Source of the DNA: a virus
Direction: 5' to 3' (one strand)
IMG/VR virus record: IMGVR_UViG_3300036985_002412
Span: 1 to 59,039 of that record
Length of the DNA stretch: 59,039 nt
How positions within the stretch are numbered: position 1 is the first letter of the stretch; each line of letters opens with the position of its first letter. Of this stretch, positions 1 through 16,491 are shown piece after piece. The notes below the pieces were generated by a model. The model was not told the origin of the DNA and ran no database searches. It saw only the letters and a list, made by a program, of their open reading frames with translations. Made by a program: the position numbers and the translations under genes.

Positions 1-127
1 TTATTCTAAAGTAGAGTATAAAATACAAGATTTTACAGAATGCAGTGGCTCATTTATAAATTGTAAACCAGGCGAATATTCTTGCAGAAGAAAAACAATA
101 GAATCTGGCGATTTAACATTTCCTAAA
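1..127. repeat. Exact 127-bp direct repeat, copy 1
   Basis: Bases 1-127 are identical to 33447-33573; the copies diverge at base 128. The repeat lies inside the 3' part of a small gene present in both places. That it begins at the very first base and is 127 bases long suggests a de Bruijn graph node at the contig edge, but a real duplication is also possible. Confidence 0.9.
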
Positions 128-145
128 CAATTTAAAAACAAATAA
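1..145 (+). CDS. 3' end of small conserved phage protein (partial)
   Basis: The window opens inside this gene; 47 codons and a TAA stop remain. The residues match the C-terminal half of the 74-residue protein at 33367-33591 almost exactly, differing only near the end (KQFKNK versus KEIKNK). The full-length relative begins with a hydrophobic segment, so this is probably a small membrane-anchored protein of unknown function. It ends in the AAACAAATAAGATTATG junction that recurs between accessory genes here. Confidence 0.75.
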   Translation, partial: YSKVEYKIQDFTECSGSFINCKPGEYSCRRKTIESGDLTFPKQFKNK

Positions 146-149
146 GATT

Positions 150-851
150 ATGAAAAACATACACATATTACCAACAGATAAACCAAGTAGGTTATATCAA
201 TTAAAAAATGATATTCTAAGATTAGATTATAAAATTGATAAAGGTGAAGCCAATAAACACATCTACATCACTTCTGATGAAGAAATTAAACCTAATGTAT
301 ACGCTTTAATTAATAAAGTTTTATGTAAAACTGAATTATTAGAGGGTAGAATTGTTTCAAGACAATTAGTAGGTGGTGCAACTATGGATATTTGTAAAAG
401 TGAATATTTAGAAATCATCCTAAGCACAGACCAAGACTTAATCAAAGATGATGTACAAGCTATTGATGATGAGTTCTTAGAGTGGTTTGTTAAAAATCCA
501 AGTTGTGAGTGGGTTGAGATTGAAAAATCAACAAACACCGCTGATAATATTGATAGTAATATACCTACTATTCCTTGGACTTTTTATAAAATAATCATTC
601 CAAGTGAAGAACCTAAACAAGAAACAACTCTTGAAGAATTTATTGAATCACAACCTTATTATGGCACTTGTACTTATGAATATAAAGAAGGTATTGAAGT
701 AGGTGCTAAATGGCAACAAGAAAGAATGTATAGTGAGGAAGAAGTTGAGGATTTTATCTATAAAGTTTGTGGCACAGTAGCAAGACTACAAGGAATTACA
801 TTAAATGGTAATCATATAGATACTGCTTATAAACAATTTAAAAAGAAATAA
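150..851 (+). CDS. Conserved hypothetical phage protein (GAKWQQER C-terminal family)
   Basis: This 233-residue soluble protein has no catalytic motif I recognise. Its middle holds an AIDDEFLEWFVKNPSCEWV stretch and its C-terminus a GAKWQQERMYSEEEV stretch followed by a helix ending in QFKKK; both recur in accessory proteins of Flavobacterium phages. The same C-terminal module ends the proteins at 33070-33363 and, more loosely, 43668-43955 (YGAEWSRD). The N-terminal half looks like a separate domain. It starts 4 bases after the preceding stop at the repeated AAATAAGATTATG junction. Function unknown. Confidence 0.8.
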   Translation: MKNIHILPTDKPSRLYQLKNDILRLDYKIDKGEANKHIYITSDEEIKPNVYALINKVLCKTELLEGRIVSRQLVGGATMDICKSEYLEIILSTDQDLIKDDVQAIDDEFLEWFVKNPSCEWVEIEKSTNTADNIDSNIPTIPWTFYKIIIPSEEPKQETTLEEFIESQPYYGTCTYEYKEGIEVGAKWQQERMYSEEEVEDFIYKVCGTVARLQGITLNGNHIDTAYKQFKKK

Positions 852-857
852 GATTAG

Positions 858-920
858 TAGATATGCAGAAGTTTGGGTGTAGCCACCAAGTTAAAAACGA
901 GAGGTGCTTCTGTATGTCTA
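858..920. repeat. Structured inverted repeat between accessory genes
   Basis: TAGATATGCAGAAG (858-871) pairs with CTTCTGTATGTCTA (907-920) apart from two G-U positions, giving a 14-bp stem around a 35-base loop that can form a small inner hairpin. It fills most of the only non-coding gap in this part. It lacks the AAC/GTT ends of the cassette hairpins. It may be a decayed cassette, a terminator-like structure or a small RNA. Confidence 0.5.
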
Positions 921-950
921 TTTATTAACAATTTAAAAAGAAATAAGATT

Positions 951-1178
951 ATGAAACAATCAGCAGTAGAATGGTTAGTAGAGAAACTAAAATCACAAGG
1001 ATTACTAATTGGAGAAATTAACAATTTAGTAGCAGTTAGAGAAGCCAAAGAAATGGAAAAGCAACAAATTATTGATGTTTGTAATAATGCACAAAAAACA
1101 GATTTTTATGTTAAATATTATGATGCAGAACAATACTACAACGAAACATTTAAAAACAAATATGAAACCAAAACGTAA
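951..1178 (+). CDS. Small conserved phage protein (paralogue of 33683-33889)
   Basis: The 75-residue product starts MKQSAVEWLVEKLK and ends in a charged helix with EQYYNETFKNK. The C-terminal two thirds are nearly identical, in protein and DNA, to the gene at 33683-33889 (about 120 bases with one or two changes). I chose the ATG at 951 because it follows the repeated AAAAGAAATAAGATTATG junction and begins the conserved SAVEWLVEKL motif; an upstream in-frame ATG reads through the 858-920 inverted repeat. Function unknown. Confidence 0.75.
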   Translation: MKQSAVEWLVEKLKSQGLLIGEINNLVAVREAKEMEKQQIIDVCNNAQKTDFYVKYYDAEQYYNETFKNKYETKT

Positions 1179-1413
1179 AAACATTTTAATGCATAAACTC
1201 TATTGCATTTGTCAATTACAGCTCGAGGTCTTAGACGAACTCAATCCAACAACTGACAAAATGGTAAAATACAAATCCGATATAATTGGACTTTGTGAGG
1301 AACTGAATAATAATGTAGCCGATACCTATACAATTCAAAAGAGTACCTACTTCCACGAATTGACAAATAAGATTGACACAATATTAAGAAAGGAATTTAA
1401 CGAAAATATGTAA
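1162..1413 (+). CDS. Hypothetical protein, 83 aa
   Basis: A basic start (MKPKRKN) is followed by a helical protein with two Cys in the first helix. It overlaps the end of the preceding gene by 17 bases in another frame, suggesting translational coupling. The ATG at 1162 is preferred over longer frames that would overlap the upstream gene extensively. I recognise no family. Confidence 0.6.
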   Translation: MKPKRKNILMHKLYCICQLQLEVLDELNPTTDKMVKYKSDIIGLCEELNNNVADTYTIQKSTYFHELTNKIDTILRKEFNENM

Positions 1414-1417
1414 TATT

Positions 1418-1516
1418 ATGAATCAAAAGGAACAGGTTATCGTAGAAGTCGCAATGTGGATTTCATTAGTTGTAGCGTGCTTAGGAATATTAAAAATAAT
1501 AACCTGGCTATTATGA
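1418..1516 (+). CDS. Single-span membrane microprotein, 32 aa
   Basis: The frame encodes a short polar N-terminus (MNQKEQ) followed by a continuous hydrophobic helix of about 23 residues. Its TGA stop overlaps the ATG of the nuclease gene downstream (ATGA), the usual coupling in tightly packed phage operons, and this is the main reason to believe it. Function unknown. Confidence 0.5.
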   Translation: MNQKEQVIVEVAMWISLVVACLGILKIITWLL

Positions 1517-1767
1517 CAGAACAGCAAATACAAACTAAAATTAAAAAGAAACTCCAGGAGCGAGGTTGGTTTGTAACCAAACTAATTAAAACCTCCACAA
1601 ATGGCATTCCAGACCTTTTAGCAATCAAATACGGCAAGGCTATGTTTATAGAAGTCAAACGAGAAAACGGCAAACTCGAACCCTTACAACAGACGCGACT
1701 CGAGGAACTAACCCAAGCTGGAGCAATTGTTAAAGTCTGGAGCGATTATGAAGTTGACTTTAAATAA
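1513..1767 (+). CDS. VRR-NUC family nuclease
   Basis: This 84-residue protein is a minimal VRR-NUC domain of the PD-(D/E)XK superfamily. An N-terminal helix (TEQQIQTKIKKKL), GIPDLL at residues 31-36, IEVK at 46-49 and a Gln-rich helix (LQQ at 58-60) supply the usual Asp, Glu-x-Lys and Gln residues. Phage members cut branched or structured DNA and usually sit with replication genes. The start at 1513 overlaps the previous stop. The TAA stop at 1765-1767 lies within the AAC half-site opening the first cassette array, so this is the fixed gene flanking the array. Confidence 0.85.
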   Translation: MTEQQIQTKIKKKLQERGWFVTKLIKTSTNGIPDLLAIKYGKAMFIEVKRENGKLEPLQQTRLEELTQAGAIVKVWSDYEVDFK

Positions 1768-1899
1768 CGTTTTGCAACTACACGTCTGTTGCGTAAAAAC
1801 ACAAAATTATCTTTCAGTTTAACACGGAATTGAAAGGTACAAAACAAATATTAAATTAATCACAATGTAGCAATAGCGTGTAATTGCTGTTATAACTCG
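1758..1899. other. attC-like site A1
   Basis: CTTTAAATAAC opens the site and GTTATAACTCG closes it. GCAACTACACGTCTGTTGCG in the left arm pairs with AGCAATAGCGTGTAATTGC in the right arm, leaving one extra base unpaired, reminiscent of the extrahelical bases of integron attC sites. The left half-site matches no cassette start in the window, as expected for the fixed boundary. GTTTTGCA after AAC is shared with B1 at 43609 and differs from internal sites. Confidence 0.75.
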
Positions 1900-1907
1900 T
1901 TTTTCTT

Positions 1908-2165
1908 ATGAAAACATTATTAATTACTACAATTTTAATTCATTTATTTTTCACAATAATATCATTTGTGATAAATTACAAAAAAGCAACAGAGCCCTAT
2001 TATGTAAAAGATGCTCTGTATGATTTAGGACTTTGTTTAATTCCAGCTGTAAATATTGCGTATGTGTTTTTAACTTTTTATGAAAGTTATTTAGAAAAGC
2101 ACTTTAATAAAATAACTTTCAATTTTAAAAAATGGTCATCTTTTATGGATAAGCGTTTAAAATGA
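1908..2165 (+). CDS. Cassette gene: small two-span membrane protein
   Basis: This 85-residue protein has a hydrophobic helix at about residues 3-23 and a second at about 40-59, with a basic C-terminal tail (FKKWSSFMDKRLK). It starts about 20 bases inside its cassette; its TGA stop sits directly on the GAGTTATAAC half-site that mirrors the cassette start. No family is recognised. A membrane location and single-gene cassette fit an accessory or exclusion role, but that is a guess. Confidence 0.7.
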   Translation: MKTLLITTILIHLFFTIISFVINYKKATEPYYVKDALYDLGLCLIPAVNIAYVFLTFYESYLEKHFNKITFNFKKWSSFMDKRLK

Positions 2166-2303
2166 GTTATAACGTTAAACGGCTTTGTGATGTTGCCGAA
2201 AATACACACACTAACTTTAAATTAAAAACTAAACAATGAAAACACAAAATGACAATTCAGTTAAGCCAGAAGTAGGCAATAGCACAAAACCGCTGTTATC
2301 TTC
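2164..2303. other. attC-like site A2
   Basis: The site runs from GAGTTATAAC to GTTATCTTC. The left arm CGGCTTTGTGATGTTGCC pairs with GGCAATAGCACAAAACCG near the right end with a few mismatches. The left half-site is the inverse of the start of the upstream cassette, the right half-site the inverse of the end of the downstream one. The ATG of the next gene (2236) lies inside it. Confidence 0.8.
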
Positions 2304-2679
2304 TCGGCTTTTAAAATTCCGAGCTTTTTCAAATGAAACAAAAAAAATGATGGATTGGGACTTTATAAGGTCAGTAAATAATCTAACTAAATTAATATCA
2401 CTAAACCACGTTGATGTTTCTGAATTTATAGGATTGCACGACAAAAATGGTAAAGAAATATACGAAGGAGATATTCTTTGTGATTACAGACTTGATGGTA
2501 CTTATCGGCTGTTTAAAATTTTCAGAGGAAAAGGCGGTTTTGTTTTTAATACCCACCAAGACGATTTTAAAAAACCTATTGAGCAAATTCTATTTACTGA
2601 AAGTTGTTCAGATATGCAAAATGCTGGTTTTTTAGAAACTTGTGAAATAGAAGGTAATATTTGGACGTACGTTTGGTAA
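2236..2679 (+). CDS. Cassette gene: YopX-like protein
   Basis: From about residue 31 the protein follows the YopX family: LKFRAF near the start, then EFIGLHDKNGKEIYEGDIL at about 65-83, a beta-rich middle and a C-terminal IEGNIWTYVW. YopX proteins are common phage accessory proteins without a settled function. The only in-frame start is the ATG at 2236, inside the preceding hairpin, so the first 20-odd residues are encoded by the recombination site. The stop is 4 bases before the closing GAAGATAAC half-site. Confidence 0.8.
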   Translation: MKTQNDNSVKPEVGNSTKPLLSSRLLKFRAFSNETKKMMDWDFIRSVNNLTKLISLNHVDVSEFIGLHDKNGKEIYEGDILCDYRLDGTYRLFKIFRGKGGFVFNTHQDDFKKPIEQILFTESCSDMQNAGFLETCEIEGNIWTYVW

Positions 2680-2683
2680 GCTG

Positions 2684-2822
2684 GAAGATAACGTTTCTCG
2701 GCTTTGCTTTGTTGCGGAAAAGTAAGCCAAAATTATCGATTAAAAAACAATATTAACAAACACAAACCGAACATTGAATTATGCCCAAAACCGCAATAGA
2801 GCAAAACCGATGTTATAAGTAG
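2684..2822. other. attC-like site A3
   Basis: The site runs from GAAGATAAC to GTTATAAGTAG. The left arm CGGCTTTGCTTTGTTGCGG pairs with CCGCAATAGAGCAAAACCG. Two of three non-complementary positions are G-T on the plus strand; the third is the C/A mismatch shared by most sites here. An ATG at 2780 opens a frame that stops at the TAG ending the right half-site, so the downstream gene uses its own ATG. Confidence 0.8.
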
Positions 2823-2830
2823 CTTTTATT

Positions 2831-3322
2831 ATGGACCAAATTAAACAATTAAAAGATTATTGTGATGAAATTTCACTTGATGATTTACGATTTGTCAAAG
2901 TAAGACAAAAAATAGAAAAAATGCACGAACAAAACAATATAACAATTATTGATTTTATAAAGCAAAAAGAATATGATTTATCTGTTCGTGCAAAAAATGT
3001 ATTAAAATACGCTTCACATTTATATACTTATATGAATGAACTTTCGGTTATTAAATTAGTAAAAATTAGAACTGTTGGTTTAAAAAGCGTAAAAGAAATT
3101 ATACACGTTTACCCTAATTTAGAAAATGAAGTTGGGCATTTAACGAGTATTACAATAAGAGAACATTTAAACAAAGAAGTATTAGCATTTGTTGAATTTG
3201 TATGCTCATCTAAAAATCAAATAGGTTATCACGAAGAAATGAAAAAGTGGTATATTTATGGTAAAGGGTTATGGGTAGATAGTGAACAATTATTTTGGTA
3301 TTTTAACCGCAATGTTGAGTAA
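2831..3322 (+). CDS. Cassette gene: protein with RNA polymerase alpha-CTD-like HhH domain
   Basis: Residues 50-90 (LSVRAKNVLKYA ... VKIRTVGLKSVKEI) match the LSVRaxNxLK...KIRNxGxKSLxEI pattern of the C-terminal domain of the RNA polymerase alpha subunit, a helix-hairpin-helix fold that binds DNA and activators. The rest (163 residues in total) is unfamiliar; the C-terminus is rich in aromatics. It starts 9 bases after its cassette opens and stops just before TACTTATAAC. A role in steering host polymerase is possible; a generic HhH DNA-binding role is the alternative. Confidence 0.65.
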   Translation: MDQIKQLKDYCDEISLDDLRFVKVRQKIEKMHEQNNITIIDFIKQKEYDLSVRAKNVLKYASHLYTYMNELSVIKLVKIRTVGLKSVKEIIHVYPNLENEVGHLTSITIREHLNKEVLAFVEFVCSSKNQIGYHEEMKKWYIYGKGLWVDSEQLFWYFNRNVE

Positions 3323-3325
3323 AGT

Positions 3326-3335
3326 TACTTATAAC
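3326..3335. other. Terminal AAC half-site of array A
   Basis: TACTTATAAC is the exact inverse of GTTATAAGTA at 2812-2821, the start of the last cassette. No hairpin arm follows; the sequence runs straight into TCCAAAATTCACG. The array therefore ends in a half-site, matching the situation at 49285-49293. Confidence 0.75.
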
Positions 3336-3367
3336 TCCAAAATTCACGCTATAAAAGTATTACAATT

Positions 3368-3550
3368 ATGCAATTATACACTAAAACAAAGGTTATAAGG
3401 ATTTCAGAAACACAATTAAAAACACTTCAAAAAATGAAGTCTTATAATGTTGATGTTGGTAATTTCATTCGTGAAGCAATACAAGAGAAAATTAAACGTG
3501 AGTACAAAGAATTAATATTAAAACATAAAAAATCGGAATGTCCGTTTTAA
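3368..3550 (+). CDS. Ribbon-helix-helix DNA-binding protein
   Basis: This 60-residue basic protein has a short N-terminal strand (TKVIRISE) followed by two helices (QLKTLQKMK and VGNFIREAIQEKIKREY), the layout of Arc/CopG-type repressors that bind operators as dimers. It is the first gene after array A and lies 65 bases upstream of the sigma operon, so it may regulate either. Its own promoter is not obvious. Confidence 0.7.
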   Translation: MQLYTKTKVIRISETQLKTLQKMKSYNVDVGNFIREAIQEKIKREYKELILKHKKSECPF

Positions 3551-3574
3551 TTTTATAACAAATAAAGTATAATT

Positions 3575-3607
3575 TTGTTACAAAACAACTTTTTTTCGTT
3601 ATATTTG
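3575..3607 (+). promoter_or_regulatory. Promoter of the sigma operon (late-type plus host-type motif)
   Basis: TTG at 3575 and TATATTTG at 3600-3607 fit the Bacteroidota promoter consensus. Overlaid is ACAAAA (3580-3585), 11 bases, then CGTTAT (3597-3602), the element repeated before three structural operons. CGTTA and TAACG also form a small inverted repeat around the -7 box. The start codon at 3615 is 8 bases beyond the -7 box, so the leader is very short. Confidence 0.7.
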
Positions 3608-3614
3608 TAACGAT

Positions 3615-3848
3615 ATGATTAAACCGCACACTATATCAACGCAAATGTGGCTCGAAACTGAAGACGATAATCTCGGTTTCAATGGATCATACGTAGAATT
3701 TAGGGTGGTAGTTGATAGCATAAACGGCTTTTGGGTTGAGAATGAAGACGAAATAGTTTTAATTATTAGCGGAACAGCCTATTATATCGAAAGCAACCAG
3801 GATTTATTGAGTTTTTTAAAACAGTATTTTAATCCGTTAACATTATGA
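3615..3848 (+). CDS. Hypothetical protein, 77 aa
   Basis: A small acidic, beta-rich protein with an aromatic-rich middle (NGFWVENEDEIVLIISG). Its stop overlaps the ATG of the sigma-like gene (ATGA), so the two are translationally coupled and probably act together. I recognise no family; an accessory or anti-sigma partner is conceivable but unsupported. Confidence 0.65.
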   Translation: MIKPHTISTQMWLETEDDNLGFNGSYVEFRVVVDSINGFWVENEDEIVLIISGTAYYIESNQDLLSFLKQYFNPLTL

Positions 3849-4288
3849 TTTTAGAAGAGTTAGCTAAGAAGGATGCCCAATGGAGAAAAATGGCTTTACA
3901 AATTTGTAAAGACAAGGACTTAGCTGACGAATTAGTACAGGAAATGTACATTAAGGTTTCAAATAAAACAAAACCTTTGTCAGATGGTTATATATTTGTG
4001 ACACTAAGATCCATTTTCTACGACTCTCTTAAATCAAAAGATATTTTAATCGATGACTTCAGAAGTTTTGAAGCTTTAGAGGAGGAAATTATTGATTATA
4101 TAATTGAGGAAATAGATTATAAAGAGCTTTCTAAGGGCTTAACCTGGTACGAACGCACTATGTTTGAACTCTCAACCTTAGTAGGTCAACGGGAACTCTC
4201 AAGACAAACAGGAATACATTTACAAACTATCCATCGAGTTAATAAGATGGTTAAATTAAAACTAAATGGCAAAAAGAAAAATAAATAG
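3845..4288 (+). CDS. Sigma-70-family-like phage transcription factor
   Basis: The 147-residue protein has a region-2-like helical segment at about 12-45 (WRKMALQICKDKDLADELVQEM) and a region-4-like helix-turn-helix at about 98-138 (ELSRQTGIHLQTIHRVNKMVK), separated by an acidic linker, an ECF-like layout. It lies upstream of the terminase, the usual place for a late-gene activator. The repeated ACAAAA-N11-CGTTAT promoters, one of which drives this operon, are its natural candidate targets. The promoter link is inference. Confidence 0.65.
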   Translation: MILEELAKKDAQWRKMALQICKDKDLADELVQEMYIKVSNKTKPLSDGYIFVTLRSIFYDSLKSKDILIDDFRSFEALEEEIIDYIIEEIDYKELSKGLTWYERTMFELSTLVGQRELSRQTGIHLQTIHRVNKMVKLKLNGKKKNK

Positions 4289-4400
4289 ATTTAAAATAAT
4301 TACTTTTTGGATAGGTGTAAATATTATAGGTATTCCAAATTTTCATTATCATATTTTTGTAAGAAAACAAAGAACATCATTATCAAGATTTTTTAATTAA
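4266..4400 (+). CDS. Small hydrophobic protein, 44 aa
   Basis: It starts inside the end of the sigma-like gene and begins MAKRK, like the next gene at 4407. A hydrophobic central stretch (KIITFWIGVNIIGIP) suggests one membrane segment, followed by a basic tail. The overlap and spacing fit a coupled operon gene, but it is short and unrecognised. Confidence 0.4.
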   Translation: MAKRKINRFKIITFWIGVNIIGIPNFHYHIFVRKQRTSLSRFFN

Positions 4401-4406
4401 ATAACA

Positions 4407-4784
4407 ATGGCAAAAAGAAAAACTAAAAAGGAAATTCAAGGCTTGGGCGATGTAATTGCAGCTGTAACCTCAGCTGTTGGGATTGAGCCTTGCGATGGTT
4501 GCAAAGACCGACAGTTTACCCTTAATCGTTTATTTAACTTTAAAACGGTTAAAAGCGAAATGACTCAAACCGATAAGGACCATTTTGCTTTATTCTTAGA
4601 CTTAAAAGGTCAAAGAGTAATTGATGGTAAAAGGACGGAGTTAGTTTTCGAGGATATTGATTTTTTAAATAAATTATACCTTTATTACTTTGGATTAGAC
4701 AATTCAAACTGTCCTAACTGTTCAAAAGTTCACGAGCAAGTGATTAAGGATTTATTCAAATTGTACAATTATGGAAATTTATAA
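4407..4784 (+). CDS. Hypothetical protein with two CxxC pairs
   Basis: The N-terminus GLGDVIAAVTSAVGI resembles a conserved start of small proteins next to terminase genes in Bacteroidota phages. CDGC (about 29-32) and CPNC (about 101-104) could bind a zinc ion. The 14-base overlap with the next gene indicates one operon. Function unknown; a packaging or head accessory role is suggested only by position. Confidence 0.65.
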   Translation: MAKRKTKKEIQGLGDVIAAVTSAVGIEPCDGCKDRQFTLNRLFNFKTVKSEMTQTDKDHFALFLDLKGQRVIDGKRTELVFEDIDFLNKLYLYYFGLDNSNCPNCSKVHEQVIKDLFKLYNYGNL

Positions 4785-4977
4785 AAGAAAAGCTATTTTT
4801 TCCAATTTAAAAGATTATGATTTTGCATCAAAAGAAAATAGTTATATTGAAATAACAGAATGGAACAACGGAGAAGGAATTGATATAAATGCCAATAATT
4901 ATAGTGATAGAAATATCTCATTATCTTATGCAGAATTTAAATTAATTAAAAAGTTAATTAAAAAATTAGATAAATAA
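4771..4977 (+). CDS. Hypothetical protein, 68 aa
   Basis: A small charged protein with a C-terminal helix (EFKLIKKLIKKLDK). It overlaps the upstream gene and ends just before a terminator. No family or motif is recognised. Confidence 0.6.
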   Translation: MEIYKRKAIFSNLKDYDFASKENSYIEITEWNNGEGIDINANNYSDRNISLSYAEFKLIKKLIKKLDK

Positions 4978-4984
4978 TGATTGT

Positions 4985-5026
4985 ACCTGAGTTGCTTACC
5001 ATAAGAACAGCTCTCAGGTCTTTTTT
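4985..5026 (+). terminator. Rho-independent terminator
   Basis: ACCTGAG (4985-4991) pairs with CTCAGGT (5013-5019) and is followed by a run of six T. It closes the sigma operon immediately before the tRNA-like element. Confidence 0.75.
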
Positions 5027-5034
5027 AAAAAAAT

Positions 5035-5121
5035 AATCGGTTAATGTAATTGGATATAAATCCAACTTGGGAAACATCCGCTTTTATAGTGGGAATAGAG
5101 GTTCAAATCCTCTACCGATTA
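5035..5121 (+). tRNA. tRNA-like element with possible UUA (ochre-reading) anticodon
   Basis: AATCGGT (5035-5041) pairs perfectly with ACCGATT (5114-5120), followed by discriminator A. AGAGG-TTCAAAT-CCTCT (5097-5113) is a perfect T-arm with canonical loop. TCCGC-TTTTATA-GTGGG (5077-5093) can be a 5-bp anticodon arm with a 7-base loop; the anticodon would be UUA, reading the stop codon UAA, but position 37 would be U, which is unusual. The D-region is about 16 bases too long and holds a TTGGA/TCCAA hairpin. CCA is not encoded. It is either an odd tRNA or a tRNA mimic. Confidence 0.45.
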
Positions 5122-5158
5122 CAAATTAATAAAATTGAATTTCAAATAATTTTCAATT

Positions 5159-5446
5159 ATGGAGGATAAAAGAAAAAATAACGGAGGAGCGAGAGCAAAC
5201 TCGGGAAGACTTAAAAAGGAAGAGGTATTCTCTTTGATTGAAACACTTGACACAATAGCAATTCCTGAGACAGTTTGGAAAATGCTTTATGCTAAGGTTT
5301 TGGATAGCGATGTAAATGCTATTAAACTTTGGTTAAGTTATCGATATGGAATGCCGAAGCAAGTAATTGATCAAAATATAAATATAGAAAAACCTATTTT
5401 CCAATCAATCAATTTGGATGTTCCAGACTACGACAGCCCAGAGTAA
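5159..5446 (+). CDS. terS: Putative terminase small subunit
   Basis: A 95-residue protein with a basic Gly/Asn-rich N-terminus (RKNNGGARANSGR) and a helical middle, placed directly before and overlapping the terminase large subunit by 29 bases. Small subunits of PBSX-type packaging systems often begin this way. It would recognise phage DNA and dock the large subunit. The call rests on position and N-terminal motif. A short hairpin (AATTGAA/TTCAATT) precedes the ATG. Confidence 0.65.
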   Translation: MEDKRKNNGGARANSGRLKKEEVFSLIETLDTIAIPETVWKMLYAKVLDSDVNAIKLWLSYRYGMPKQVIDQNINIEKPIFQSINLDVPDYDSPE

Positions 5447-6581
5447 AATCGCACGATTAAGAAAACGTGTTCGGATTGTGCAGGGTGGAACCTCCAGCTC
5501 GAAAACGTTTTCTATTTTACCTTTATTAATAACTTACGCTATACAAAATCCATTTTCAGAGATTAGTATAGTTAGTGAGAGCATTCCTCATTTAAAAAGG
5601 GGAGCTTTAAAGGATTTTCAAAAGATAATGATATTGACTGACAATTATAAGGATGCTAATTTCAATCGGTCATCGTTAAAATATACGTTTTCAAACAATT
5701 CCTATATTGAATTTTTTAGTGTGGACCAACCGGACAAACTCAGAGGAGCAAGGAGGGATATTCTATTTGTAAACGAGTGCAATAATATCGATTTTGAAAG
5801 CTACCAACAACTCGCAGTGCGTACAAAGAAATTCATTTACTTAGACTACAACCCTACAAATGAGTTTTGGGTACAAACGGAGCTTATAAACGATGCAGAC
5901 TCTGACTTTGTAGTTTTAACTTACAAGGATAACGAGGCACTCGATCCGGCAATCGTTAGAGAGATTGAGAAGGCAAAAGTTAAAGCACTTACATCAACGT
6001 ATTGGGCGAACTGGTGGAACGTTTACGGATTGGGAATGCTTGGCTCACTTGAAGGGGTTATCTTTCAAAATTGGGAGCAAATCGATACCGTACCAGCTGA
6101 AGCAAAATTCTTAGGATGTGGACTCGATTTTGGTTATAGCAATGACCCAACCGCTTTGATTGGAGTGTATGAGTACAATGGTAAGATAATCGCTGACGAA
6201 ATGATATATTCAACCTCACTATTAAACTCCGATATTATTACTTTAATGAAACAAGAGCGAACCCTTCCAATATGGGCGGACTCAGCAGAACCAAAAAGCA
6301 TCGAGGAAATTCGCAGAGCTGGTTACAATATCAAACCAGTTGTTAAGGGTGCAGACTCAATAAATTTCGGTATCTCGGTGCTACAGCAAAAAGAGTTATT
6401 AGTTACAAAATCGAGCACTAATTTAATTAAAGAGTTGAGGCATTACAGTTGGGATGTTGACAAAACAGGCAAAAAGCTAAACAAGCCAATCGACGATTTT
6501 AACCACGGACTCGATGCTTTGCGTTATTTTGCAATGATGCAACTCGCTATAAAACCACATCGTAAGGTGATTATCACGTAA
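5418..6581 (+). CDS. terL: Terminase large subunit (PBSX/Terminase_3 type)
   Basis: The packaging ATPase-nuclease. Walker A is GGTSSSKT at residues 23-30, Walker B lies around DILFVNECNN near residue 115, and the C-terminal nuclease shows GLDFGYSNDPTAL, WADSAEPKSIEEI and DDFNHGLDALRY with its metal-binding Asp residues. Length (387) is normal for the family. It pumps DNA through the portal into the prohead. It overlaps the small-subunit gene and is followed by a late promoter. In this unit the portal lies 10 kb downstream, not adjacent as is common. Confidence 0.95.
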   Translation: MFQTTTAQSKIARLRKRVRIVQGGTSSSKTFSILPLLITYAIQNPFSEISIVSESIPHLKRGALKDFQKIMILTDNYKDANFNRSSLKYTFSNNSYIEFFSVDQPDKLRGARRDILFVNECNNIDFESYQQLAVRTKKFIYLDYNPTNEFWVQTELINDADSDFVVLTYKDNEALDPAIVREIEKAKVKALTSTYWANWWNVYGLGMLGSLEGVIFQNWEQIDTVPAEAKFLGCGLDFGYSNDPTALIGVYEYNGKIIADEMIYSTSLLNSDIITLMKQERTLPIWADSAEPKSIEEIRRAGYNIKPVVKGADSINFGISVLQQKELLVTKSSTNLIKELRHYSWDVDKTGKKLNKPIDDFNHGLDALRYFAMMQLAIKPHRKVIIT

Positions 6582-6609
6582 ATTTAGTGAAAACAACTTA
6601 TTTTTATAA

Positions 6610-6638
6610 ACAAAACCAACTTTTAACGTTATATATAT
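6610..6638 (+). promoter_or_regulatory. Phage late promoter, copy 2
   Basis: ACAAAA (6610-6615), 11 bases, CGTTAT (6627-6632), then the start codon exactly 12 bases after the C of CGTTAT. The leader would be almost or completely absent. It precedes the tail operon. Confidence 0.7.
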
Positions 6639-7331
6639 ATGAGAGTTACTATTCCAACCTATTTAAGTGAGATTAAATTATCTCAGTACCTAAGATATCA
6701 AAAGGTTATCGCTGATAATTCAGACGATGAGACCTTTGTATGTATTCAAATGGTGGCTATCTTTTGTAATTTAACAGTTGCCGAAGTTATGAAAATTCCT
6801 GTTAATGATTTCGGGGAAATCGTTGAAACATTAGCGAAAGTATTGGATCAGAAACCCGCACTCGTTAGAACTTTTAAATTAAATAAGGTTGAGTACGGAT
6901 TTATTCCAAACTTTGAGAAAATAACCTTAGGCGAACACGCAACGATTGACACGTTACTCGGCAAAGATGAGAATTTAGCCTTATTAATTTCGGTAATGTA
7001 TCGTAAAATAACTAAAAAGGTTTCTGTCTTTTACGAGATTGAGGAGTACGATGGTGACGAAAGCAAAGCGGAACTTTTTAAAGACGTTCCAATGGATGTA
7101 GTAATAGGTTCTATGCTTTTTTTTTGGACTTTAAACAAAGAATTATTATCGAATATCCTATTACATTTGGAGAGCAAGGCAGCGAGGGAGGGACTGAATT
7201 TGGAGGAAGCTTTGGAGAGCGTTGGGGGTGGTATCAAACTTTTATTCGACTGTCGAGAGAACTTAGAATCCACGTTAGAGAAATTGGAAGAGAGCCTCTT
7301 CACGAATCACTCACGTTATTATCTTACTTAA
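6639..7331 (+). CDS. Putative tail assembly chaperone, frame 0
   Basis: A 230-residue helical protein heading the tail operon, with a VVIGSMLFFWTLNKELL segment and a helical C-terminus of the kind found in tail-chaperone-like proteins of Bacteroidota siphophages. Near codon 160 it crosses nine T residues, and a long reading frame in the -1 register overlaps its last 200 bases. This mirrors the lambda G/GT arrangement, where a minor frameshift product recruits the tape measure. The chaperone role is inferred from position and overlap. Confidence 0.6.
   Translation: MRVTIPTYLSEIKLSQYLRYQKVIADNSDDETFVCIQMVAIFCNLTVAEVMKIPVNDFGEIVETLAKVLDQKPALVRTFKLNKVEYGFIPNFEKITLGEHATIDTLLGKDENLALLISVMYRKITKKVSVFYEIEEYDGDESKAELFKDVPMDVVIGSMLFFWTLNKELLSNILLHLESKAAREGLNLEEALESVGGGIKLLFDCRENLESTLEKLEESLFTNHSRYYLT
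7118..7124 (+). other. Candidate -1 ribosomal slippage site (T TTT TTT)
   Basis: In the frame of the gene at 6639 the codons are CTT TTT TTT TGG, so the heptamer T TTT TTT at 7118-7124 is a perfect X XXY YYZ slip site within T9. After a -1 slip translation continues TTG GAC TTT and stays open to 7384. Confidence 0.6.
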
Positions 7332-7384
7332 TTGACGAAAGCAAAGAGGAAGCAAAACAAATTAAACAAAACTTTAAGAAATGA
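7124..7384 (+). CDS. Tail assembly chaperone -1 frame extension (T domain)
   Basis: This frame is open from 7082, spans the T9 tract and ends at 7384. Its only plausible local start is TTG at 7124, so it is more likely reached by -1 slippage from the gene at 6639. The C-terminal part (GWYQTFIRL ... PLHESLTLLSYLIDES) resembles the second chaperone frame of Bacteroidota phages, which often carries a W.W...HE.L.YL pattern. It overlaps the next gene by 4 bases. The frameshifted fusion would be about 250 residues. Confidence 0.6.
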   Translation: MDFKQRIIIEYPITFGEQGSEGGTEFGGSFGERWGWYQTFIRLSRELRIHVREIGREPLHESLTLLSYLIDESKEEAKQIKQNFKK

Positions 7385-7836
7385 AATCATTTTATAAAAC
7401 AATCGACTATATTAAAACCACTTTGGAGGGTGCTCCGTTATTGAATACGATAACTCACGGAACAGATATAATCGATAACGTTAAAAAGAATATATTCCCT
7501 TTGGCTCACATAAATGTTATGAGCTCAAGCATCAACGCTGGAGTTGTTAATTTCACATTTGAAATCGCAATACTCGATATTCGTAATATCTCAAAGGTAA
7601 AATATAAAGATAAGTTTTTAGGAAATGATAATGAACTCGATAATTTGAACACGTGTCACGCTATTTTGAACTATATGATTATGTCGATGCGAATGAAGCG
7701 AAACGATAACGATATTGAGTTAATGAATGAGCCAACGTTGCAACCGATTTTGATGGCTTTCACAAATGCGTTAGACGGTTGGAAGTGCGATATTGAGTTA
7801 AGTATTCCGAATAACGATTTTGATGTTTGCTGTTAA
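7381..7836 (+). CDS. Putative tail completion/terminator protein
   Basis: A 151-residue alpha/beta protein whose end (ALDGWKCDIELSIPNNDFDVC) matches a motif of minor tail proteins beside HK97-gp10-like genes in Bacteroidota phages. It overlaps its neighbours by a few bases. By position it would cap the tail tube or join head and tail; the exact role is inferred. Confidence 0.55.
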   Translation: MKSFYKTIDYIKTTLEGAPLLNTITHGTDIIDNVKKNIFPLAHINVMSSSINAGVVNFTFEIAILDIRNISKVKYKDKFLGNDNELDNLNTCHAILNYMIMSMRMKRNDNDIELMNEPTLQPILMAFTNALDGWKCDIELSIPNNDFDVCC

Positions 7837-8360
7837 TGGAACTTAAAAAAGTACAGGAGGCATTAAACGCTTTCGGAGCCTCTGTAGTTGAGAGAGCAAA
7901 ACAAAATTTAAAGATAGGGGGTAAATACGGAACGCATAACGCATCCGGAAAGCTTTCAAACTCTTTAAATTATAAAACAAAAGTCAACCCGAACTCGATT
8001 GAATTTGACTTTTACGCTGAGGATTACTGGAAGGAACTTGACTTTGGTACAAAAGGAAGTCAATCGAGTAATAAAGCACCGAATAGTCCTTACAAAGCAA
8101 CGGCAAAACTCGCTGACATTGATAGGTGGGTAGTTCGTAAAGGATTGCAAGGTACGAGAGGAGCTGGTGGAAAGTTTGTAAATCGTAAATTGATGGTTGC
8201 AAGTATAACAAAATCGATTAATAAGACAGGAACTCCAGAAACGAAGTTTTTTAGGAGTGCATTCGATAAGGAATATGAGAATTTTAACAATAATATTGCC
8301 GATAAATACGGATTAGATTTGGAGGAGTTTTTAAAATTTAGTTTAAAAGATATAAAATGA
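7836..8360 (+). CDS. HK97 gp10-like tail/head-tail protein
   Basis: Features of the gp10-like family as found in Bacteroidota phages are visible: a long N-terminal helix (ALNAFGASVVERAKQNL), then YWKELDFGTKGSQSS, an IDRWVVRKGLQG segment and a C-terminal TKFFRSAFDKEYENF helix. Such proteins sit at the head-tail joint or tail terminus. I use the ATG at 7836, which overlaps the preceding stop; an in-frame TTG lies 9 bases upstream. Confidence 0.7.
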   Translation: MELKKVQEALNAFGASVVERAKQNLKIGGKYGTHNASGKLSNSLNYKTKVNPNSIEFDFYAEDYWKELDFGTKGSQSSNKAPNSPYKATAKLADIDRWVVRKGLQGTRGAGGKFVNRKLMVASITKSINKTGTPETKFFRSAFDKEYENFNNNIADKYGLDLEEFLKFSLKDIK

Positions 8361-8518
8361 ACATAGTAAAAATTTATAAAGGAGAGGACACAATTGAAAC
8401 TTTTACAATTAAAAGCGAAAATACTATTGACTCAAGTCAGTACGTAATTTTGTGGGATTGTAAAGAGGAAATATATATTGACGAGGAATTGATTGAAACA
8501 AAATATCATACAGTATGA
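8357..8518 (+). CDS. Small hypothetical protein, 53 aa
   Basis: An acidic, beta-strand-rich protein (KIYKGEDTIETFTI) coupled at both ends: its ATG overlaps the preceding stop and its TGA overlaps the next ATG. This conservation of coupling supports a real tail-operon gene. No family recognised. Confidence 0.6.
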   Translation: MNIVKIYKGEDTIETFTIKSENTIDSSQYVILWDCKEEIYIDEELIETKYHTV

Positions 8519-9636
8519 AAGTAGTAAAAGTTAGAAGTCCGTTTATAATTGAAGTAAATGAGGCGGGTGCAATAGGAAGCAAAGTTGAATTATTTATTTA
8601 TCCTTACGGAAGTTCAGTTCCTGCAACTCCAACCTATACACTATCGAAATTAAACCCAAGTACAACACAATTAAACACGTCTTATAATGTTTCTAATTAT
8701 GTTAAAGAATACATAGATAATATTAAAGCAACCTACGTTCCATTTTATGGCGAACTTGAGCAGAATAACGAATGGGTAAAATTTCAAGTTAAAAGATATA
8801 AATTAGTAGGAAGTACTTATACAGAATTAGGTACTGCGACTGAATATATTGGTGTTAATGGATTTACAGATTACACAAGTGGAAATCAAGAGCCAAGCGA
8901 AGTAAAAATACTATTATTATCAAATCCAAATATCAATAATTATTATTATAAAACACCCACCTATCCAAATACATTAACGCAATATTTTAATTTGTTAGTT
9001 GATAAGCCAACGGCTACTACTACTATAATCGATGTAAAATATGAAAGGATTGATGGTTCAATTTACGAATATACAAATAATATTGCGGTTGGTTTTGGTG
9101 GTATATTTAATATTGCTCAACCTATTACACCTGTAAAAGCAAATGGTAATTTTGTTAACGGTTGTAAGGTTACAATATCTTATACTCCTGCGGTTGGAGA
9201 CACTATATTTTTACCTTCATTTTATACATATCCAATTGAAGAATGTAAATACACTCCAGTACTTTGTGATTTTGTAAATAGATACGGAGGTTGGCAAACA
9301 ATTACTTTTTTCAAGGCTCAGACGAATGCTGTAAGCGTAAAAGGTTCAGAATATAATTTACTTCCTGATGCAATTGATTATAATATATATAAAGGGCAAA
9401 GCAAAGTTTTTAATATAAACGGAACACAAACTGTTAAATTAAATACGGGTTGGGTAGATGAAAATTACAATGAGTTAATAACTGATTTGTTATTAAGTGA
9501 AACTGTATTATTGGATCAAAAACCAGTAAAAGTTAAAACGCAATCTTTGACTTACAAGACACAATTAAAAGATAAAATGATAAACTTTGAAATTGATTTT
9601 GAATACGCTTTCGACTTAATAAATAACGTTATATGA
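8515..9636 (+). CDS. Phage tail protein (conserved, distal-tail region)
   Basis: A 373-residue beta-rich protein beginning VKVRSPFIIEVNEAGAIGSK, a signature I associate with conserved tail proteins of Bacteroidota siphophages, always next to the large protein encoded downstream. No enzymatic motif is visible. Position suggests a distal tail or tail-tip component. Confidence 0.6.
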   Translation: MKVVKVRSPFIIEVNEAGAIGSKVELFIYPYGSSVPATPTYTLSKLNPSTTQLNTSYNVSNYVKEYIDNIKATYVPFYGELEQNNEWVKFQVKRYKLVGSTYTELGTATEYIGVNGFTDYTSGNQEPSEVKILLLSNPNINNYYYKTPTYPNTLTQYFNLLVDKPTATTTIIDVKYERIDGSIYEYTNNIAVGFGGIFNIAQPITPVKANGNFVNGCKVTISYTPAVGDTIFLPSFYTYPIEECKYTPVLCDFVNRYGGWQTITFFKAQTNAVSVKGSEYNLLPDAIDYNIYKGQSKVFNINGTQTVKLNTGWVDENYNELITDLLLSETVLLDQKPVKVKTQSLTYKTQLKDKMINFEIDFEYAFDLINNVI

Positions 9637-11651
9637 TAACAGTTGGAATATATATAAAAAACTCTTATACCTTAGAATTTGATAGGGTTGAGTTATTTGC
9701 TGACGAAAAAATAAGCGTAACGAGTTCAATTCAAAATATAAATAATATTGGAGCGACTTATTCGGATTTTTCTCAGACGTTTACAGTTCCGGCTACTAAA
9801 AATAATAATAAGATTTTCAAACATTGGTACGAAAATTCTTTAGACACACAATTTAGTACATTAATAAAAGCTGATGCATATATTGAATTGGATACAATAC
9901 CATTTAGAATAGGTAAAATTCAATTAGAAAGCTGCGATATTAAAAATGGACAGCCACAAAGCTACTCAATTACTTTTATTGGCAATTTAGGAAACTTAAA
10001 AGACAATTTTGCAGGTAAATTTTTAAGGGATTTAAATACTACAGATTATGATTTTTCACATAATGGAACTGTTGTAAAAGATAAAGTAGTTACAACTACA
10101 ACAAGTGCTGATGTAATGTTTCCGTTAATTTCATCAGATAGGTATTGGAATTATGAAAGTGCATTAGATCCAAGTAATAACATAAGTAATACACTTTATG
10201 CAATTAGATTTAATGAATTATTTCCCGCAATAAGATTACAATCAATTTTTAATATGATTGAAAATGATTTTAATGTTAATTTACAAGGAACTACTGAAAA
10301 TCCAAGTACTTTTTTAACAGATGCAAGGTTTATAAATGCTTATTTATATTTAAAAAATGCAGAAACATTTAAGATTAAAAGTGAATTAAATCAAATAAAC
10401 TTTAATACTTCAACTAATTTTCCAATTAACGGATGGTCATTTTCTTTAGGAAGTGACGCTTTAACTTATGCTATACCTGGAACATTTAGAGCGTCAGAAG
10501 TTTCATTATCAGTAACAACAACAACAACAAATGTTAATTATAGTATTATAGTTTATAAAGATGGTATTTTATATAATACTGTTCCCTGTTCAAACATTTC
10601 AATTTTAACTAACACCTTTGATTTAATTAGTTATACAACTAACATACCAAGCAATGCTGGTCAGTTTAAATTTTATATTGTATCAGAAAATACATTAGTC
10701 TTTACTTCTGAATTAACTGTTTCTGTTACGGCTGTAGGTGATGCCTTTGCTACTCAATCAACAGCACAAACAACTTCTGCTGAATTATATATAAAAAATT
10801 ATTTTCCTGAAATTAAAATTGAGGACTTTTTTAGTGGTGTTTTAAAAATGTTCAATCTTACTTGTTATTCAACTGACGGAATAAATTATACGATAGACAC
10901 AATAGAAAACTATTATGCTACTGGTAATATTATTGATTTGACAAAATATGTCAAGACAGATTCAATCAATTTAACAAGGGTAAAAACTTATAAAAAAATT
11001 AACTTTTTATACGAGAAATCTGAGTCATTAGTTAACGTAGGTTTCAACTCAAATAATGGAATTGAATACGGCTCTCTTTATTATGAAAATATACCTAAAA
11101 CAGATGGCGAGGAATATTCAATAAAGCTACCTTTTGAGGATTTAAATTTTAACAATTTAAAAGACAAATTACAAGTTGGTTATTGCTTAAAAACTGATTT
11201 ACAAAAGTATATACCTAAGCCGATTATTTTATACGATTATAACCCGACAGGTTTAACAAGTTTGACAGCTACTGATTTTTGGTTTAATACATTTTTAACA
11301 GGTGGAACTTCAACTCAACATACAAGTTATAAAGCATTCGGTCAAGAATTATTAACTGGTGGGATTACTTATTCATTGAATTTTCCTGAGCAACAAAGTA
11401 CATTGACAAATGAAGTTGTAGTAAATAGTTTATATCAAACTTATTACTCAAATTATATAAGTAATATTTTTAATTATAGAGCACGATTAATCAAAGTTAG
11501 TGCTATACTACCTATTTCGGTTTTAACGTCTTTAAAACTCAACAACAGAGTTATAATAAGAGATAAAAGATATATTATAAATTCATTCACAACTGATTTA
11601 ACAACAGGCGAGGCTTCATTTGAATTATTAACCGATTTACGAACATTATGA
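9633..11651 (+). CDS. Large tail-tip/baseplate-like protein
   Basis: A 672-residue protein with a conserved N-terminal segment (ISVTSSIQNINNIGATYSDF and QTFTVPATKNNNKIFKHWY) typical of a Bacteroidota-phage tail family. The middle is beta-rich with low-complexity Thr/Asn stretches and the C-terminus has a compact VIIRDKRYIINSFTTDL strand pair. It overlaps its neighbours by 4 bases. A role in the tail tip before the tape measure is inferred. Confidence 0.6.
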   Translation: MITVGIYIKNSYTLEFDRVELFADEKISVTSSIQNINNIGATYSDFSQTFTVPATKNNNKIFKHWYENSLDTQFSTLIKADAYIELDTIPFRIGKIQLESCDIKNGQPQSYSITFIGNLGNLKDNFAGKFLRDLNTTDYDFSHNGTVVKDKVVTTTTSADVMFPLISSDRYWNYESALDPSNNISNTLYAIRFNELFPAIRLQSIFNMIENDFNVNLQGTTENPSTFLTDARFINAYLYLKNAETFKIKSELNQINFNTSTNFPINGWSFSLGSDALTYAIPGTFRASEVSLSVTTTTTNVNYSIIVYKDGILYNTVPCSNISILTNTFDLISYTTNIPSNAGQFKFYIVSENTLVFTSELTVSVTAVGDAFATQSTAQTTSAELYIKNYFPEIKIEDFFSGVLKMFNLTCYSTDGINYTIDTIENYYATGNIIDLTKYVKTDSINLTRVKTYKKINFLYEKSESLVNVGFNSNNGIEYGSLYYENIPKTDGEEYSIKLPFEDLNFNNLKDKLQVGYCLKTDLQKYIPKPIILYDYNPTGLTSLTATDFWFNTFLTGGTSTQHTSYKAFGQELLTGGITYSLNFPEQQSTLTNEVVVNSLYQTYYSNYISNIFNYRARLIKVSAILPISVLTSLKLNNRVIIRDKRYIINSFTTDLTTGEASFELLTDLRTL

Positions 11652-11794
11652 TAAACAACATTTTAGAAATGCTGAAGCTTGCGGAGCACTTTGATAGCAA
11701 TGAAATTATTGCAACCGCAAAAGGGAAATACGAACTACCAAAAACTTATAAAGAAATATTTAAAAAAGCGTTAAAATGGCAATTGAAAAAGTAA
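11648..11794 (+). CDS. Small hypothetical protein, 48 aa
   Basis: A helical, Lys-rich protein (MINNILEMLKLAEHF ... KTYKEIFKKALKW) whose ATG overlaps the preceding TGA and whose end overlaps the tape-measure start by 19 bases in another frame. The coupling favours a real gene. Confidence 0.5.
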   Translation: MINNILEMLKLAEHFDSNEIIATAKGKYELPKTYKEIFKKALKWQLKK

Positions 11795-13677
11795 TTGATA
11801 TACAAATACAAAGTAATTCTGAGCAAGCGGTAGGAAGTTTAAGAACGCAATTAAAAAACGCTCAAGCCGATGTCGCTGCATTATCCGATAAGTTCGGAGC
11901 GACTTCAATCGAAGCAATTAATGCAGCAAAAAGAGCGGGGGAACTTAAAGATAGGATTGGAGATGCCAAAGGATTAACCGATGCCTTTAATCCCGATGCT
12001 AAATTCAAGGCTTTGTCGAGTTCACTCTCGGGAGTTGCTGGAGGTTTTGCAGCGGTACAGGGTGGAATGGCTTTATTTGGAGCACAATCGGAAGACGTTG
12101 AAAAAACTTTGTTAAAAGTTCAGTCTGCGATGGCACTCTCTCAAGGACTTCAACAAATTGGCGAAAGTGTAGATAGTTTCAAACAACTTGGAGCGGTTAT
12201 TAAATCGCTTAACGTTGTTCAATTAGCGAACAACTTTATTCAAACGGGTTCCATTACATTAAAAAGAGAAGATGTAGCCGCAACCACAGCACAAGCAACC
12301 GCAACAGTATCAGCCACCGCAGCAACAAGCGGAGCAACTACGGGAATGAAGTTGTTAAGATTGGCAATTATAGGAACAGGAATAGGTGCAATCGTTGTCG
12401 GTTTGAGTTTACTTATAGCAAATTTCGACAAAGTTAAGGAAACTATAATGAAAGTTATCCCTGGACTTTCATCAGTTGGTAAAGTAATTGGAGGGATTGT
12501 AAATTCAATTACTGATTTCGTAGGTGCAACCTCAGACGCTTCGAGAGCACTCGATAAACTTAAAGAAAATGCGGATAAAACTTTGTCCGTAAATAAAAAG
12601 TTTATGCAGGAACACGGAGACCAAGTTGACCAATATACAAAAAAGAAAATTGATGCGAAAAACGCCTATGCCGAAGCGGTAAAAGAGGAAGGTGCGAATG
12701 AGGCAGAATTAGCAAAAAAATTAAATAGAGAATTAGCTGCAATTGAATATTCGAGAGGAGACGAAAAAAGAAAAATTCAAAAAGATGCAAGCGATAAGGC
12801 TGCGGAGGATAGAAAATCTCAAAATGAAAAATTAAAAAATGAGCGTGAGGATGAGGCTAAAAAATTAAAAGAGGAAAAAGACAAAGCCGTAATTTCAGAA
12901 GCCGAAGCATTTAGAAACCAATTAGAGGCGGTGCAAAAAGTTGAGGCGGATGCTAAAAAAGCGAATGCAGATGCCTTATTGACTGAGCAAGAATTAGCGA
13001 TACAAACTGAAAACGAAGCTTACGAAATTAAAAAAGCAAATGCGATAAAATTTGGAGAGGAAACAACAGAGATTGAGAGGCAACATTTAAACACTTTAAA
13101 TGATATAAATTTAACAGCTCAGCAAAAACAATACGCAACAGATAAGGCAAACACAGAGGCGAAAATAAAACTTTCAGAAGCTGAGGCAGATGCTAAAAAA
13201 GCACTACTTCAAAAAACCTCCGAAGTATTAAATAAAGGAGCTGATTTACTTGGTAAGAATACCGCAGCAGGTAAAGCGATGGCAGCGGCAGCCGCTTTAA
13301 TTAATACTTATCAAGGTATTACAGCGGAACTTGCAACTAAAACAGTTACACCTTTTGAGATAGGTTTAAAAATTGCCAACGTTGCTATTATTGCAGCTAC
13401 AGGATTTAAAGCGGTTAAAAATATTTTAGCCGTAAAAGTGCCAGGTGGTGGTGGTGGTGGTGGTGGAAGTGTTCCCGATGGAGCTTCCGCCGCAGGTGGT
13501 GGAGCTTCAACTCCTCCATCTTTTAATGTAGTTGGAGCATCTGGAACGAATCAACTCGCTCAATCTATTGGGGCACAGCAACAGCAACCGATACAGGCTT
13601 ACGTAGTTGCAAATAATGTGACAACGGCTCAGAGCTTACAACGTAACATAATCGAGAGTGCCACAATAGGAGGTTAA
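11776..13677 (+). CDS. Tape measure protein
   Basis: A 633-residue protein with an N-terminal coiled region, an Ala/Gly-rich hydrophobic segment around residues 195-215 (LRLAIIGTGIGAIVVGLSLL), a long charged coiled coil (about 290-480) and a Gly-rich C-terminus with a run of eight Gly. This is the standard architecture of siphovirus tape measures, which set tail length and are ejected with DNA. At about 0.15 nm per residue it implies a tail near 95 nm. Confidence 0.85.
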   Translation: MAIEKVIDIQIQSNSEQAVGSLRTQLKNAQADVAALSDKFGATSIEAINAAKRAGELKDRIGDAKGLTDAFNPDAKFKALSSSLSGVAGGFAAVQGGMALFGAQSEDVEKTLLKVQSAMALSQGLQQIGESVDSFKQLGAVIKSLNVVQLANNFIQTGSITLKREDVAATTAQATATVSATAATSGATTGMKLLRLAIIGTGIGAIVVGLSLLIANFDKVKETIMKVIPGLSSVGKVIGGIVNSITDFVGATSDASRALDKLKENADKTLSVNKKFMQEHGDQVDQYTKKKIDAKNAYAEAVKEEGANEAELAKKLNRELAAIEYSRGDEKRKIQKDASDKAAEDRKSQNEKLKNEREDEAKKLKEEKDKAVISEAEAFRNQLEAVQKVEADAKKANADALLTEQELAIQTENEAYEIKKANAIKFGEETTEIERQHLNTLNDINLTAQQKQYATDKANTEAKIKLSEAEADAKKALLQKTSEVLNKGADLLGKNTAAGKAMAAAAALINTYQGITAELATKTVTPFEIGLKIANVAIIAATGFKAVKNILAVKVPGGGGGGGGSVPDGASAAGGGASTPPSFNVVGASGTNQLAQSIGAQQQQPIQAYVVANNVTTAQSLQRNIIESATIGG

Positions 13678-13686
13678 AAATTCAAT

Positions 13687-13733
13687 CTACAGGTTTAAAA
13701 TTTATTTATTTTTTAAATCTGTAGGCTTGTTTT
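13687..13733 (+). terminator. Terminator after tape measure gene
   Basis: CTACAGGTTTAAAA (13687-13700) pairs with TTTTAAATCTGTAG (13711-13724) apart from one G-U position, followed by GCTTGTTTTG. It separates the tail operon from the capsid operon and is almost symmetric. Confidence 0.7.
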
Positions 13734-13770
13734 GTATCATTAAATTAAAATTTAATGTAAAAAGTTTATA

Positions 13771-13799
13771 ACAAAATTAATTAATATCGTTATACATAT
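13771..13799 (+). promoter_or_regulatory. Phage late promoter, copy 3
   Basis: ACAAAA (13771-13776), 11 bases, CGTTAT (13788-13793), start codon 12 bases after the C of CGTTAT, as at 6610 and 16523. It drives the protease-capsid operon. Confidence 0.7.
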
Positions 13800-14885: not shown

Positions 14886-14891
14886 ACAAAA

Positions 14892-15893: not shown

Positions 15894-15903
15894 TTAATAA
15901 TTT

Positions 15904-15930
15904 AACCGCTCATTAATTTGGGCGGTTTTT
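15904..15930 (+). terminator. Terminator after capsid gene
   Basis: AACCGC (15904-15909) pairs with GCGGTT (15922-15927), followed by T residues. It may reduce read-through into the tail tube gene, which has no late promoter of its own. Confidence 0.65.
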
Positions 15931-15946
15931 AATACAAAAAAAACAA

Positions 15947-16471: not shown

Positions 16472-16491
16472 CTTTTTGCATAAAAATTGAT

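Follow-up and report, generated by a model that had tools for sequence, protein, structure and literature searches.

Which enzyme could move the genes that lie, each behind a hairpin, at positions 1766-3335 of an IMG/VR virus record of 59,039 bases (hereafter the window), when the phage around them, of flavobacterium type, has no tyrosine recombinase? We consider, with a probability of roughly 80%, that this stretch is an integron-like array without its own recombinase, and that its cassettes would be moved in trans by an enzyme of the family encoded at 49345-50151. The window comprises two phages, phage A at 1-33447 and then the phage that carries array B and the recombinase (phage B). The features of phage A and of its array, array A, are the following.

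1..33447, no strand assigned: phage A, apparently a complete genome, in circular permutation with respect to its kin, without a tyrosine recombinase
1513..1767, plus strand: VRR-NUC / Holliday-junction-resolvase-like gene (PF08774, E 9.5e-9)
1766..1891, plus strand: site A1, attC-like hairpin of the AACGTTTTGCA subtype (R2 122 bits, E 3e-21; fold)
1769..2173, plus strand: cassette unit 1, hairpin A1 and an 85-aa gene at 1908-2165 (sequence, end complementarity, limits by analogy with L120/L122)
2171..2297, plus strand: site A2, attC-like hairpin (R2 E 6.2e-16)
2174..2692, plus strand: cassette unit 2, hairpin A2 and a YopX gene at 2236-2679 (PF09643, E 1.4e-9)
2690..2814, plus strand: site A3, attC-like hairpin (R2 E 1.4e-20)
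2693..3335, plus strand: cassette unit 3, hairpin A3 and a 163-aa gene at 2831-3322 (sequence; PF03118, E 5.5e-5)
3332..3367, plus strand: attI-like site of array A, TAAC followed by TCCAAAATTCACGCTATAAAAGTATTACAATT (55 aligned relatives)
3368..3550, plus strand: 60-aa flank gene, phrog_25647, conserved right neighbour of array A (phrog E 1e-34)

An earlier note on this DNA had divided array A into three cassettes; the number stands, while the limits shift to those given above, so that in each unit the hairpin comes before the gene. The units extend from the G that follows one AAC to the next AAC, limits that we infer from relatives of the window. On the left, the stop codon of the VRR-NUC gene overlaps the first TAAC of the array, and relatives of this gene (L079-L082) likewise end in TAACG. 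The units' own ends are GTTATAACTCG and GAGTTATAAC in unit 1, GTTATCTTC and GAAGATAAC in unit 2, and GTTATAAGTAG and TTACTTATAAC in unit 3. The start codon of the YopX gene lies within the hairpin loop of A2, and its product has 147 aa. The cargo types assigned from the letters (membrane protein, YopX-like and alpha-CTD-like) are as described, the 85-aa protein being a borderline match to a phage membrane-protein family (E 0.058) and the 163-aa protein a weak alpha-CTD match (23.2 bits against a cutoff of 23.8). The same note had proposed looking for the three cassettes elsewhere. In IMG/VR, the YopX gene is the only one met again, in arrays L131, L319 and L300 and once outside an array (L299); for the 85-aa and 163-aa genes no relative was detectable. 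A spaced start-codon pattern was also looked for in the window, and nothing was found.

For the sites, we relied on a covariance model, R2, whose 24 training sites all came from other contigs and none from the window. Applied to the whole 59 kb, it returned exactly nine sites, A1-A3 and B1-B6 (E 3e-21 to 4e-5), the best match outside the arrays having an E of 0.74. Its recovery of A1-A3 at 3e-21, 6e-16 and 1e-20 bears out the proposal that the three cassettes share one site family. Each site, typically about 124 nt long, has paired R and L boxes, an asymmetric unpaired spacer and invariant AAC/GTT pairs, as in an attC-type fold. Among the 24 non-window sites, 97.7% of the stem cells were paired, compensatory changes were seen in 15 of the 20 stem pairs, and cells with double changes numbered 119 versus 33 after shuffling; the covariation score was 0.708, against 0.180 in shuffled and at most 0.145 in slid alignments. 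When folded singly as DNA, these AT-rich sites had energies not distinct from those of shuffles (A1, z -0.9; A2, z 0.1), so the structural case rests on covariation and not on energy. Rfam contained no family matching the sites. About 310 sites were counted in IMG/VR loci, each on the same strand as the neighbouring flank gene or recombinase.

The motif AACGTTTTGCA(A/G)C is indeed common to A1 and B1 in the window, as had been pointed out; its supposed role in marking array boundaries did not hold. It is a site subtype: AACGNTTTGCA is present in 17 of 282 sites, at any array position (in L098, for instance, at sites three and four), and AACGTTTTGCA is ruled out as a boundary signature. Two sites in the L098 array (1053-1178 and 1400-1525) have equal scores and both start with AACGTTTTGCAACTACA, suggesting recent copying of a site.

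The cassettes carry a second, individual mark: reverse-complemented, the bases after the right GTT read the same as those before the cassette's own final AAC. In 192 phage cassettes, the start agreed with the reverse-complemented own end at 5.29 of 6 positions, compared with 2.70 in shuffled pairs. This complementarity is what an excised circle would need to regain its full stem, and integron cassettes behave likewise. In the same cassettes, position 8 after GTT matches in 1% of cases and position 9 pairs again. The mismatch at position 8 is systematic in phage and chromosomal cassettes, with G on the start side and T on the end side, and is possibly a mark of polarity. Taken with the fixed G-T pair, the fixed mismatch is consistent with recombination of the folded bottom strand only; in the model proposed here, a folded single strand, the plus strand by integron convention, would be the recombination substrate. 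A unit measures 488 nt in the median, and in 89 of 174 phage cassettes the longest frame has its start codon within the hairpin. In all 174 clear phage cases, with 0 exceptions, the site comes first and the gene is directed towards attI.

The right end of array A has its own signature. When 55 relatives were aligned, the columns to the left of TAAC mostly carried 0-0.7 bits (with one fixed T at -7), TAAC itself 2.0 bits, and the columns to its right mostly 0.5-1.6 bits. This conservation step indicates that array A possesses an attI-like site of its own beside the 60-aa flank gene, where the cassettes end. The flank gene has 69 relatives in IMG/VR. At recombinase loci, a like step with a different conserved sequence lies 44-68 bases before the gene in 40 of the 49 loci checked. 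Array B and its relatives have their attI directly beside the integrase gene, as integrons do; array A has a site of this kind too, with no recombinase adjoining it. An empty junction, TTTAAATAAC joined directly to T...CTATAAA, had been predicted, and it found no match in IMG/VR, where no empty attI was seen for the lineage of array A.

From these parts we propose the following sequence of events. A unit would consist of some 125 nt of attC-like DNA, able to fold into a hairpin of two paired boxes with an unpaired spacer, and then one gene, often with its start codon in the hairpin loop. It would be excised as a circle at the step between AAC and G, which would restore pairing between its own first and last bases, and inserted at the attI-like site (3332-3367 in array A). 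Since insertion would occur at attI-like sites, new cassettes would enter beside the 60-aa flank gene. The catalyst would be a tyrosine recombinase of the 49345-50151 family, provided by the host or by another phage, whether co-infecting or a prophage.

Comparison of related loci supports the movement of single, precisely bounded cassettes. L120 and L122 share flanks of 1798 and 998 nt that are 100% identical, and the difference between them is one cassette of ~806 bases, the break falling inside TAACGT; L127 is a third variant of this locus, with a different last cassette. A 401-nt cassette stretch is 99.75% identical between L038, in a 362-kb record that bears the recombinase family, and L125/L126, integrase-less records with the flank gene. 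Its right end is exactly TAAC, and its left end extends 14 bases beyond AAC, an overrun that we read as an end motif common to the two. Homologues of several other cassettes occur in both flank-gene and recombinase records. Exchange of cassettes between phages, which the earlier note had suggested, thus gains support from the L038/L125 cassette and the L120/L122 difference; the argument from two phages sharing one window falls away, since phages A and B were perhaps joined by the assembler and a shared contig is then no evidence of exchange.

As for the enzyme, the only PF00589 match in the record is at 49690, at the end of array B, whose parts are listed here.

43606..43730, plus strand: site B1, weak hairpin (R2 E 3.9e-5)
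43961..44082, plus strand: site B2 (R2 E 1.5e-18)
44852..44976, plus strand: site B3 (R2 E 2.9e-10)
46377..46499, plus strand: site B4 (R2 E 1.8e-10)
47319..47441, plus strand: site B5 (R2 E 3.6e-12)
48190..48313, plus strand: site B6 (R2 E 1.7e-17)
49290..49344, plus strand: attI-like site of array B, TAAC followed by TACTATATGTA..., directly upstream of the recombinase (conservation step in relatives)
49345..50151, plus strand: tyrosine recombinase of 268 aa in phage B, candidate cognate enzyme of the site family (PF00589, E 3.4e-35)

This recombinase has 76 relatives in IMG/VR, with arrays upstream and all sites in the orientation of the recombinase. Nineteen of them, placed in a tree, formed one group in a clade apart from IntI. 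Between two conserved motifs there are 59-60 residues in the phage proteins, 64-65 in the chromosomal ones, 106 in IntI and 68 in E. coli XerC, and the additional domain that IntI bears around patch III is thus absent from the family. Against TIGR02249 the protein scored 146 in two pieces, the cutoff being 265. Its predicted structure (mean pLDDT 88) matched XerA best and IntI4 (2a3v) next. No isolate phage was found to carry a recombinase of this family, the best places reaching about 34% identity. In L033 (2425-3222), the C-terminal part of the recombinase equals that of the window protein and the rest has diverged, as if recombined.

The family extends to chromosomes. Model R1, built from the window sites, had matches in 72 of 198 sampled Bacteroidota genomes, a count that leans towards the window's family because of how R1 was trained. 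When loci were picked by recombinase similarity alone, arrays were often present, and near the genuine IntI loci of the phylum R1 found no site. The loci L277-L286, L166, L195, L209, L213 and L204 are chromosomal arrays of Bacteroidota with the same site family and classical polarity, and the recombinases beside them are without the IntI domain. Their cassette ends pair as those of the phages do. In chromosomal arrays, 65 of 74 genes are directed away from attI, a figure in which the strand of the sites rests partly on R1 and is backed by the constant position of the recombinase, found at the right end of the array in site orientation in phages and chromosomes alike.

The 49345 protein might still be an ordinary prophage integrase that stands beside the array by chance, with a host IntI or some other enzyme moving the cassettes. 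Such an account would fit its membership of the phage integrase superfamily and the report that IntI1 recombines one of two tested attC sites of Polaribacter phage P12002L (PMC9892861). We hold it unlikely, because a conserved attI at the array end precedes the recombinase across the 76 relatives, and because chromosomal relatives without the IntI insertion also terminate arrays of this family, whereas the IntI loci of the phylum have none.

An enzyme of the 49345-50151 family acting from outside phage A thus remains our preferred reading. A search of 1-33447 with PF00589 and the A4 profile was empty, in agreement with the earlier observation that this unit has no recombinase. Among 39 records with the attI or flank gene of array A, 37 showed no trace of the cognate recombinase (PF00589, A4 profile), an absence that is weaker evidence there than in phage A as many of these records are fragmentary; the exceptions were G031 and the contig edge of G024. 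Conversely, the flank gene is missing from 31 of the 32 records that carry the recombinase. These counts favour the proposed dependence on a recombinase in trans, and array A, having none in its own phage, would behave like an integron run from outside; G031 and the G024 edge, which hold both flank gene and cognate recombinase, indicate that supply in trans is not a universal rule. By sequence comparison, then, we can establish the site family with its structure, cassette limits and attI, the gain and loss of single cassettes, the sharing of a cassette by both kinds of genome, the linkage of sites to the recombinase family and the absence of this family from phage A; that its recombinase is the catalyst, and acts in trans, is what these results would imply.

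Were arrays A and B parts of a single phage genome, the recombinase would act in cis. The single contig and the two records just named could be taken that way. We judge this improbable, given that positions 1-148 recur at 33447-33594 as a 98.6% repeat that closes phage A, that relatives join its right end to its left end, and that it is syntenic with G003 and G037; the repeat and the synteny argue for 1-33447 as a closed genome. The near-complete separation of recombinase and flank gene across records also speaks against a single genome. Beyond the repeat the contig enters the second phage, and an assembly join at the repeat is possible. The end repeat and the circular permutation of 1-33447 agree with the earlier recognition of two phages in the window. 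Least probable of all is that the hairpins are regulatory RNA or terminator repeats before moron genes, shuffled by homologous recombination: their position immediately 5' of genes, the start codons inside them and stems that could equally form in RNA are compatible with it, but the cassette-specific end complementarity lies outside the hairpin and has no RNA role, the breakpoints are at TAAC outside the stem, there are a conserved insertion site without a hairpin and a linked recombinase, and the diverging hairpin sequences would be poor homology tracts.

With cassettes moved in trans by this recombinase family still the reading we favour, the cargo gives an idea of their use. Among 99 phage cassette proteins, Pfam identified 10 N6/N4 methylases, 4 C5 methylases and 4 YopX proteins, with single matches to Mom, D12 methylase and others, and most were without a Pfam family. 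Judging from these families, anti-restriction is likely a use of part of the cargo. In L140 (1046-7004), five related DNA methyltransferase genes stand in a row with array sites adjoining. More broadly, and with less assurance than for array A itself, we lean towards the view that integrons of a class whose recombinases lack the IntI domain operate in Bacteroidota and in their phages, that polarity is reversed in the phages so that each cassette would bring a translation start inside its recombination site, and that some phages keep only attI and cassettes and exploit a recombinase of other elements. A recombinase family that apparently handles folded cassettes without the additional domain would open to test how integrons arose and what they minimally require. 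Phages would gain an engine for swapping methyltransferases and small genes of unknown function, many orphan phage genes would be explained as cassettes, and the phage arrays would be tied to those of the same site family in the sampled Bacteroidota genomes.

The system shares with integrons its tandem single-gene cassettes, a folded two-box site with an unpaired spacer, cassette starts complementary to their own ends, an insertion site beside the recombinase, and the gain and loss of cassettes at one conserved base step. It differs in that the recombinase has no IntI-specific domain and groups apart from IntI, a domain regarded as needed for IntI activity (Messier and Roy 2001, as cited in PMC9668308). 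The R-box consensus GTTRRRY is found in 15 of 282 sites (5%), the conserved part being GTTR only, and the classical orientation, with attC after the gene, in none of the 174 phage cassettes, whose genes follow the site towards attI, compared with the large majority in chromosomal arrays. IntegronFinder 2.0 reported very few integrons in Bacteroidetes (PMC9024848). In the open-access literature, preprints and most subscription journals aside, we found nothing on an integron-like system of Bacteroidota with a recombinase lacking the IntI domain. A CALIN is defined by two or more attC sites in the absence of an integrase gene; phage A has three sites, attC by structure and not by GTTRRRY, and no integrase, which supports the likeness to integrase-less attC clusters drawn earlier. 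Qi et al. (2023) described 17 such clusters in phages, including that of P12002L with methyltransferases, for which the authors reported no cognate recombinase and no phage attI and described the site directions as divergent (PMC9892861). The P12002L cluster (L147, NC_028924, 29170-32300, minus strand) resembles the present system in that a flavobacterial phage lacking a recombinase carries methyltransferase cassettes and, by eye, in a hairpin before the gene and complementary cassette ends (e.g. GTTAGGCAC / GTGCCTAAC). These two last features suggest that it may be a divergent member of the system, although its sites are unmatched by R1 (best 10.5 bits). Finally, the solved relatives nearest to the recombinase, whether judged by sequence (archaeal Xer 4a8e, XerA 5hxy) or by fold score, belong to the XerA/XerC/XerD group, which likewise has no IntI insertion. 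Xer enzymes act at a short dif site to resolve chromosome dimers, whereas the recombinase family of the window adjoins cassette arrays.
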